Shown: piece after piece, positions 33,911 through 35,915 of the stretch
Layout: the number at the start of each line of letters is the position of its first letter
Position numbering within the stretch: position 1 is the first letter of the stretch
NCBI RefSeq assembly: GCF_010367455.1
Contig: NZ_WRPR01000002.1
Span: forward strand, 1-64,000
Source of the DNA: Candidatus Laterigemmans baculatus
GTDB taxonomy: Bacteria; Planctomycetota; Planctomycetia; Pirellulales; Pirellulaceae
DNA length: 64,000 bases
Direction of reading: 5' to 3'
The notes under the pieces: model-generated
What the model was told of the DNA's origin: nothing
What the model saw: only the letters and a program-made list of their open reading frames with translations
Databases searched by the model: none
Made by a program: the position numbers and the translations under genes

Positions 33911-33956
33911 TCGTTCTTCTTCTTCGGTGGCACGTTCTTCCTCCGCTGCGTTTGGT

Positions 33957-35915
33957 ATGTCTGAGAGCGTCGCGCAATCGTCCGACCGCTATGTCGTCGT
34001 CGCGCGGCGTTACCGGCCTCGCGGCTTTGAGCAACTGGTTGGCCAGGAGCACGTCGCCCGGGCGCTGAAGAACGCGATCGAGACCGGGCGGGTCGGGCAC
34101 GCCTACCTGTTCACCGGGGCTCGCGGGGTCGGCAAGACCAGCACCGCGCGGATCTTCGCCAAAGCGCTCAACGCGCCCGAGGGGCCCACGGCGACTCCTG
34201 ACGACAGCAGCGACATCTGCCAGGCGATCGACGCCGGGGAAGACATCGACGTGCTGGAGATCGACGGAGCGAGCAACCGCGGGATCGACGAGATCCGCCA
34301 GCTTCGCTCGGGGGTCGGGGTTCGTCCGAGCCGAGCGCGGTACAAGATCTACATCATCGACGAAGTCCACATGCTCACCCAAGCGGCCTTCAACGCCCTG
34401 TTGAAGACGCTCGAGGAGCCTCCGGAGCACGTCAAATTCATCTTCTGCACGACCGATCCGGAAAAGATCCCGATCACCGTGCTCAGCCGTTGCCAGCGTT
34501 TTGACTTCGCTCCGGTGCGGGTCGATGAGATCGCCGGCCGACTGCGAGAGATCGTCGACGCCGAGCGGGCCGAGGCGGACGACGAAGCGTTGCGGTTGTT
34601 GGCGCGCCGCGCCGCTGGATCGATGCGCGACAGCCAGTCGCTGCTCGAACAGGTCCTCAGCTTCAGCAGTGGTCGGCTGACCGTCGAGAGCGTGCATTCG
34701 ATGCTCGGCACGGCCGACGACGCGCGGATGGTCGAGTTGGCCGAAGCGCTCGGCAACCGCGACAGCCGCAAGGCGCTCGACGTGATCGACGCGGCCGTGC
34801 TGGGAGGCGTCGACGCGGGGCAGTTGGCCGAACAACTGCTTGGCTTTTTTCGCGACATGATGACCGCCGCGGTCGGTTGCGACGCCGAGATGCTGCGGTT
34901 TACCAGCTCGGCGATGCACCCCCAGCTGAAGGAGCAAGGGCAGCAGGTGGGGCTGCAGACGATCCTGGGGATCGTCGCCCTGCTCGACCAGACCCTGGTC
35001 CGGATCCGCCAGAGCGTCCACGGTCAAGTGTTGCTCGAAGCGGCTGTGGTGCAGATCTGCACCCTCCCGGACCTCGACGCGATCACCCGGCTCGCGGCCG
35101 CTCTGTCCGGGGCGGGGGGCAATGGAGCGGCCGGGGGCGAAAAAAAAAACGCTAGTCGGCCCGCCGCCGCGGTAGCCGCTCCCCAAGCGGTTCAGGCTGC
35201 AGCGCGTGCTCCAGCTCCCGGAGGCACGCCGCTCGCGGAACAGCCTGCGGCCCCCTCCCCTGCTCAGGCCCCCGCCCCTGCTCAGGCCCCCTCCCCTGCT
35301 GAGGCCCCCTCGGCTGCAGCTCAGTCCCCTGGCGCTGTTCGGAGTGCCTCCGCTGCCTCCGCTGCCTCCGCTGGCGCTGCTCAGGTCTCGGCACCGGTCG
35401 GCACAGGTGGGCCGTCGCGACCGCAGCTGGCGGCCGCGAGCGGGGGGAGAGAGGGCGGGGCGCCGGTTGCTGCGGGGGGCGAATCGCAGGATTTGGTCGT
35501 GCCGCTCGAGCGGCCTTGGGACAAGCCGACGGCCGAGCGGGTGTGGCAAGCCGCGTTGGCAGCAATGGATGGGATGACGGCCGATTTTGCTCGCCAAGCC
35601 GCTGCTGTTGAGCCGCAGGGGAAGCATCGTCTGCGTCTCATGTTTCCTGCCGACCGCGAGCTGGCCCGCCGAGCCTGCGAGAAGCCCGAGCGAAAAACGC
35701 AGCTCGAAGCGGCGATCCGGTCTGTTTCGGCACGCGACGTGCAGATAGACTGCGATTTGTGTTCCACCACGGCCGCGCCCCCCAAGCCGGCCAAGGCCTC
35801 AGCCGCAGTCAACCGGCGTCAGCTGATGCGGGAGGCCGAGGGGCACCCGCTGGTGCAGGAACTGATCGAGCTGTTCGAAGCGGAAATCGTGCGGGTCGAT
35901 CAGCTCTCTGGGTAG
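33957..35915 (+). CDS. dnaX: DNA polymerase III subunit tau/gamma
   Basis: Clamp-loader ATPase. The 652-residue tau form has Walker A GARGVGKT at residues 54-61, IIDEVHML (Walker B), the TTDPEKIPITVLSRCQRF sensor/arginine-finger region, AAA+ lid and collar domains to about residue 380, a Pro/Ala-rich linker and a C-terminal tau domain. The zinc knuckle C-x8-C-x2-C-x2-C is degraded to A73, D82, S85, C88. Ten A residues at 35140-35149 followed in the -1 frame by CGC TAG suggest programmed slippage giving a gamma form of about 399 residues. The ATG at 33957 is chosen over the GTG at 33927. Leads into ybaB and recR. Confidence 0.95.
   Translation: MSESVAQSSDRYVVVARRYRPRGFEQLVGQEHVARALKNAIETGRVGHAYLFTGARGVGKTSTARIFAKALNAPEGPTATPDDSSDICQAIDAGEDIDVLEIDGASNRGIDEIRQLRSGVGVRPSRARYKIYIIDEVHMLTQAAFNALLKTLEEPPEHVKFIFCTTDPEKIPITVLSRCQRFDFAPVRVDEIAGRLREIVDAERAEADDEALRLLARRAAGSMRDSQSLLEQVLSFSSGRLTVESVHSMLGTADDARMVELAEALGNRDSRKALDVIDAAVLGGVDAGQLAEQLLGFFRDMMTAAVGCDAEMLRFTSSAMHPQLKEQGQQVGLQTILGIVALLDQTLVRIRQSVHGQVLLEAAVVQICTLPDLDAITRLAAALSGAGGNGAAGGEKKNASRPAAAVAAPQAVQAAARAPAPGGTPLAEQPAAPSPAQAPAPAQAPSPAEAPSAAAQSPGAVRSASAASAASAGAAQVSAPVGTGGPSRPQLAAASGGREGGAPVAAGGESQDLVVPLERPWDKPTAERVWQAALAAMDGMTADFARQAAAVEPQGKHRLRLMFPADRELARRACEKPERKTQLEAAIRSVSARDVQIDCDLCSTTAAPPKPAKASAAVNRRQLMREAEGHPLVQELIELFEAEIVRVDQLSG
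35124..35155 (+). promoter_or_regulatory. probable programmed frameshift/slippage site in dnaX
   Basis: A 10-A run (35140-35149) lies just after the collar domain. In the normal frame it reads GAA AAA AAA AAC GCT; after a -1 slip, or one extra A in the transcript, it reads AAA CGC TAG with the stop at 35153-35155. A Shine-Dalgarno-like GGAG lies at 35124-35127, twelve bases upstream of the run, as in the stimulator arrangement known for Escherichia coli dnaX. A G/C-rich inverted segment follows. Confidence 0.75.

Follow-up and report, generated by a model that had tools for sequence, protein, structure and literature searches.

The dnaX gene in the window (the whole 64,000-nucleotide stretch of DNA analysed here) carries ten consecutive A's just behind the portion encoding the clamp-loader core, and through transcriptional slippage at this A10 run a single reading frame very probably gives rise to both the tau and the gamma subunit. 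The original prediction had proposed recoding on the A run, possibly by transcriptional slippage, and is supported by the conservation of nine to ten A's, the use of all three codon phases, and the presence of stops in both alternative frames.

The dnaX gene and the A10 site

The gene product scores 430 bits against TIGR02397 (dnaX_nterm; cutoff 250) and contains matches to the Pfam families DNA_pol3_delta2, DNAX_ATPase_lid, and DNA_pol3_gamma3. An alternative GTG start at 33927, which would add ten codons upstream, is possible. The gene is followed, in order, by three ORFs that we take, by recognition, to be YbaB-like, recR-like, and rpoN-like. The features of the locus are as follows:

33957–35915, + strand, dnaX, full-length product tau of 652 aa (ATG at 33957, TAG at 35913–35915)
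34680–35075, + strand, clamp-loader domain III (collar), the last domain common to tau and gamma (PF12169, residues 242–373)
35124–35127, + strand, GGAG, present here but not conserved, with SD-like motifs not enriched
35140–35149, + strand, candidate slippage site of ten A's (from the sequence, and from A9 or A10 in the corresponding position of 88 of the 114 class loci)
35150–35912, + strand, tau-only part, comprising an Ala/Pro-rich linker and the C-terminal domain (HMM of Pirellulales tails)
35153–35155, + strand, TAG that would end a 399-aa gamma if the mRNA had one additional A or the ribosome shifted −1
35173–35175, + strand, TAG that would end a 405-aa gamma if the mRNA had one A fewer or two more

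The run lies exactly where the original prediction had placed it, with the zero frame reading GAA AAA AAA AAC GCT in agreement with the codons then given (GAA AAA AAA AAC), and its location just after the collar was also confirmed, as the A10 begins in codon 395, 21 codons beyond residue 373 of 652, where domain III ends. Simulated mRNAs containing 8, 9, 10, 11, 12, 13, and 14 A's encode 398, 405, 652, 399, 406, 653, and 400 aa, respectively; every change in the A count that is not divisible by three truncates the product at most eight codons on, at the size of gamma, a consequence that the original prediction did not mention. The 11-A transcript, for which about 399 residues and the TAG at 35153–35155 had been forecast, encodes 399 aa ending in KKKR.

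The A10 run in dnaX is far from a chance occurrence. A10/T10 is found only twice in the 5.76-Mb genome, one of the two being the dnaX site, and the A9 pattern has nine matches, representing seven separate runs of at least nine; for the window itself, shuffles give an expectation of 0.15 A9 matches. Runs of this kind are rare in whole genomes: G024, for example, has two A9 matches in 6.6 Mb, one of them inside dnaX.

The genome's second A10 (L001:1501–1510; G000:C100:157777–157786) fuses a BREX PglX-like/type IIG methylase in frame with a PDC-M25A-like ATPase, usually encoded as a defence gene of its own. As read from the sequence, gaining or losing one A would stop the methylase at a TGA close to where the ATPase begins, and this second run may represent slippage, phase variation, or an assembly error.

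Conservation across the class and phylum

The comparison set consisted of 114 dnaX loci, one per species and apparently all from the class Planctomycetia, gathered from relatives, the phylum, the class, named genome contigs, and fetched regions; the genomes are in part MAGs and the species are related, so the counts are not independent. Judging by named hits, the genome of the window probably belongs near Aporhodopirellula (Pirellulaceae, class Planctomycetia). A run of nine or ten A's lies just behind domain III in 88 of these loci, in every case at residues equivalent to 393–444 of the window gene. Runs were found in 25 of 29 loci in the window's family (f1), 19 of 21 in f13, 15 of 18 in f78, 12 of 20 in f77, and 17 of 26 in the rest, with named carriers including Aporhodopirellula aestuarii (A10), a Schlesneria MAG (A10), and Gemmata sp. 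IIL30 (A9). Runs of at least nine are sporadic in the remainder of the phylum (8 of 94 loci). The original prediction had looked to related genomes for the A run and the −1 stop, and the relatives mostly keep both. The HMM of Pirellulales tails matches a zero-frame tau tail in each of the 113 complete class genes; a misassembled run would disrupt tau, which is intact in all of them.

Five members of genus g32 in family f13 (L035, L036, L243, L257, and L262) have two A9/A10 runs whose starts are 12 nt apart, and a sixth (L242) has a single run.

Signature of selection on the run

Runs of 5, 6, 7, 8, 9, 10, and 11 or more A's number 61, 21, 4, 2, 59, 34, and 0 in the tail regions of the 114 loci, and the dnaX core contains no A run above 7. 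Selection against A/T runs becomes evident from nine nucleotides in many bacteria (Baranov et al., PMC1088944), a threshold that fits the lower limit of the runs in class dnaX. The absence of A11 might, as a guess, reflect excess slippage or DNA instability.

The 88 run-bearing genes place the run in codon phases 0, 1, and 2 in 7, 38, and 43 cases, and as all three phases are used, it is the nucleotides that are conserved rather than the peptide, which varies (QKKT, VKKN, EKKN, SKKK, KKKT). Outside the run, lysine is encoded by AAA in 44% and AAG in 56% of codons in the class genes, and in the window gene by AAG in 12 of 15 and AAA in 3 of 15; within the runs it is AAA without exception (log10 P about −79, assuming independent codons and genes). 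The surrounding linker is largely unalignable, with GGCGAAAAAAAAAAC intact in the closest relatives and little else in common among the linkers of three close genes.

Both alternative frames meet a stop within eight codons of the run in 68 of the 88 genes, versus a mean of 5.7 and a maximum of 15 of 88 in 200 sets of codon-shuffled linkers. Elsewhere, closure of both frames was found at 1.5% of linker positions in run-less genomes and at 8% of later linker positions in run-bearing genes. The median distance to a stop is 4 codons in the +1 frame versus 24, and 3 codons in the −1 frame versus 15.

Search for frameshift stimulators

In Escherichia coli, gamma is made by a −1 ribosomal frameshift at A_AAA_AAG in dnaX, aided by an SD sequence and a stem-loop. 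SD-like motifs upstream of the class runs show no enrichment (10 observed in 88 genes versus 9.7 expected), and GGAG is absent from the equivalent place in the close relative L004. The GGAG noted in the original prediction does lie 12 nt before the A10; the stimulator role implied for it did not hold up, the motif being unconserved and SD-like sequences at background, and it probably has no role. Downstream, the window has no stem-loop at 35150–35200 (z +0.59), and the 50 nt following the class runs are no more structured than shuffles (mean z 0.02). The heptamer in the window is A_AAA_AAA/A_AAA_AAC rather than an in-frame A_AAA_AAG, and 14 of the 88 class runs end in A_AAA_AAG.

A hairpin occurs upstream of the run in the window (35095–35133, z −2.0). 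Raw energies hinted at an enrichment of such nascent-RNA hairpins across the class, which disappeared upon correction for composition (z −0.18 versus −0.29, p 0.30).

Proposed mechanism and alternatives

Under the mechanism that we propose, RNA polymerase would slip on the A10 template and generate a heterogeneous pool of mRNAs with 8, 9, 10, 11, 12, or more A's, of which those with 10 (or 13) would be translated into tau and the others would reach a TAG in two to eight codons, yielding gamma-like proteins of about 398–406 aa. We infer the slippage event, its extent, and the functioning of the short product as gamma in the clamp loader. A −1 ribosomal shift requires a stop in the −1 frame only and an appropriately phased run of seven, generally with the help of stimulators. 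Heterogeneous mRNA accounts together for the stops in both frames, the avoidance of A7 and A8, the free phase, and the lack of stimulators, and slippage is therefore strongly favoured over ribosomal frameshifting.

Programmed −1 ribosomal frameshifting at A_AAA_AAA or A_AAA_AAC within the run, producing gamma as in E. coli, could draw on the in-frame heptamer contained in every run of at least nine and on the −1 stop 3 nt past the run in the window; we nonetheless consider it improbable as the sole source of gamma. The upstream and downstream flanks are at background; +1-frame stops, superfluous for a −1 shift, are enriched as strongly as −1-frame stops; runs of seven or eight A's, long enough for ribosomes, hardly occur; and only a small share of the runs end in the motif that is strong in E. 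coli. Action at both levels, with the A run giving rise to heterogeneous mRNA and also to a degree of ribosomal slippage, is less easily dismissed, as A9/A10 includes A_AAA_AAA and some ribosomal −1 shifting could contribute. Runs of this length are in principle prone to both processes, but no conserved feature specific to ribosomal shifting was found, and we regard the combined reading as possible, if unlikely.

The remaining alternatives do not involve recoding. Homopolymers mutate readily and the run has 9 A's in some species and 10 in others, as might be expected of a contingency locus subject to replication slippage and phase variation at the level of DNA rather than the transcript; however, a phase-variable gene should often be found off-frame, whereas tau, which is normally essential, is in frame in every complete gene, making this explanation very improbable. 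Least credible of all is a chance low-complexity sequence or a structurally useful Lys-rich peptide: AAA lysine codons do favour short A runs, but such a reading is at odds with the genome-wide rarity of the run, the exclusive use of AAA where AAG is otherwise preferred, the variable peptides, and the bimodal lengths. Transcriptional slippage at A10 is accordingly our preferred reading of the window gene.

Gain and loss of the run

On a tree of the DnaX core (a quick FastTree inference), the presence or absence of the run requires 16 changes. As nearly all deep branches carry the run, these changes would most simply be explained by a run present in the ancestor and lost several times. Gamma made by slippage would appear to be dispensable, as 26 of the 114 class genomes have no run of at least nine and most of these have no replacement signal: 24 of the 26 lack an A-run-like in-frame heptamer, and the two that have one, L249 (A_AAA_AAA) and L254 (A_AAA_AAC), meet a −1 stop after six codons. 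In the run-less genomes, gamma may have been lost or may be made otherwise.

All sampled members of genus g19 in the window's family (L015, L137, L142, and L143) lack both the A run and a replacement, and this genus represents a natural loss, with its sister genus g126 carrying the run. Three loci of family f33 (L072, L091, and L095) have a short dnaX tail past domain III and no tau domain in other frames, the −1 frame in L091 being that of the next gene, which is ybaB-like; these are possibly gamma-only clamp loaders.

Two-ORF dnaX genes

In another planctomycete order (that of G066; family f21, L291–L309, e.g., L301, L306, and L309), the zero frame of dnaX ends a short way past domain III, and matches to the Pirellulales tail HMM, obtained in 15 of 18 genomes, all fall in the −1 frame. 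Near the stop, all 18 carry a C followed by a CCN codon, no more than one codon away from the stop in 17 of them, versus a background of 2.7% per two-codon window. In most of these genes a stem-loop begins at the stop, with z values as low as −6.0, and it is missing from a minority, L292 among them; 4 of 8 pairs show compensatory changes, and GGA(G) is often found 12–18 nt upstream. Tetramers of the type C_CC.Y shift −1 in E. coli when given a stimulator (PMC4066793). Tau in family f21 is probably made through a −1 ribosomal frameshift at C_CCN, and this two-ORF dnaX is apparently an undescribed arrangement, as far as the literature was searched.

Further two-ORF dnaX genes, with A runs, occur in L086, L108, and L211; the −1 frame is confirmed by the tau HMM in the first two and not in L211. 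The dnaX genes of L089, L103, and L105 (genus g35, family f15) have in common a zero frame that ends at GGA AAA GCC TGA, with GCCGG next, and behind it lies an open −1 frame of 76 codons with no significant match to the tau HMM; these represent another possible two-ORF dnaX.

Taken as a whole, the survey leads us to think it fairly likely that dnaX recoding is widespread and has been repeatedly reinvented in Planctomycetota, with A9/A10 slippage for gamma ancestral to the class Planctomycetia and the arrangement reversed in the C_CCN order, where gamma would be the zero-frame product and tau would result from a −1 ribosomal frameshift at C_CCN, behind which come a stop and a stem-loop.

Significance and comparison with known systems

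Programmed transcriptional slippage in a core replication gene has so far rested mainly on Thermus thermophilus. The approximately 88 natural sites confined to 9–10 A's allow the requirements of RNA polymerase for slippage, and the question of whether selection maintains gamma, to be addressed by comparison, and the roughly 16 gains or losses among related species with and without the run open the disputed role of gamma to testing. Among the full texts that could be searched, exclusive of subscription papers and supplements, only PMC3711429 combined dnaX with planctomycetes, and its main text does not contain this site.

The window gene shares with E. coli dnaX the gene itself and the outcome, gamma from a truncated frame, but differs from it in that neither the window nor the class has the in-frame A_AAA_AAG as a rule, a conserved SD stimulator, or a 3′ stem-loop, and in that stops in both frames are selected and the run is almost never shorter than nine. 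Caulobacter also obtains a short and a long product from one dnaX gene, with gamma arising by proteolysis (PMC5009743), a route that needs no recoding signal and that could, speculatively, apply to the 26 run-less class genomes. The two-ORF dnaX genes identified by GeneTack mostly have A10 or A9 runs (12 of 17, the remaining five being outside the present comparison), and slippage was proposed for them (Antonov et al. 2013, PMC3711429); in those genes a slip is needed for tau, whereas the window gene and every complete class gene encode tau in the zero frame.

The closest counterpart is dnaX of T. thermophilus, in which, according to the accounts of Larsen et al. (2000) given in PMC1088944 and PMC5009743, transcriptional slippage occurs at A9 with stops in both frames and a gamma:tau ratio of about 1:1. 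The planctomycete system belongs to another phylum, uses A9 or A10, is kept across most of the sampled class members, and is described here at the level of sequence. Like the T. thermophilus gene, the window gene is a single ORF with tau in the zero frame (652 aa), an uninterrupted coding-strand run of at least nine A's behind the clamp-loader core, and near stops in both other frames (TAG at 35153 and TAG at 35173).
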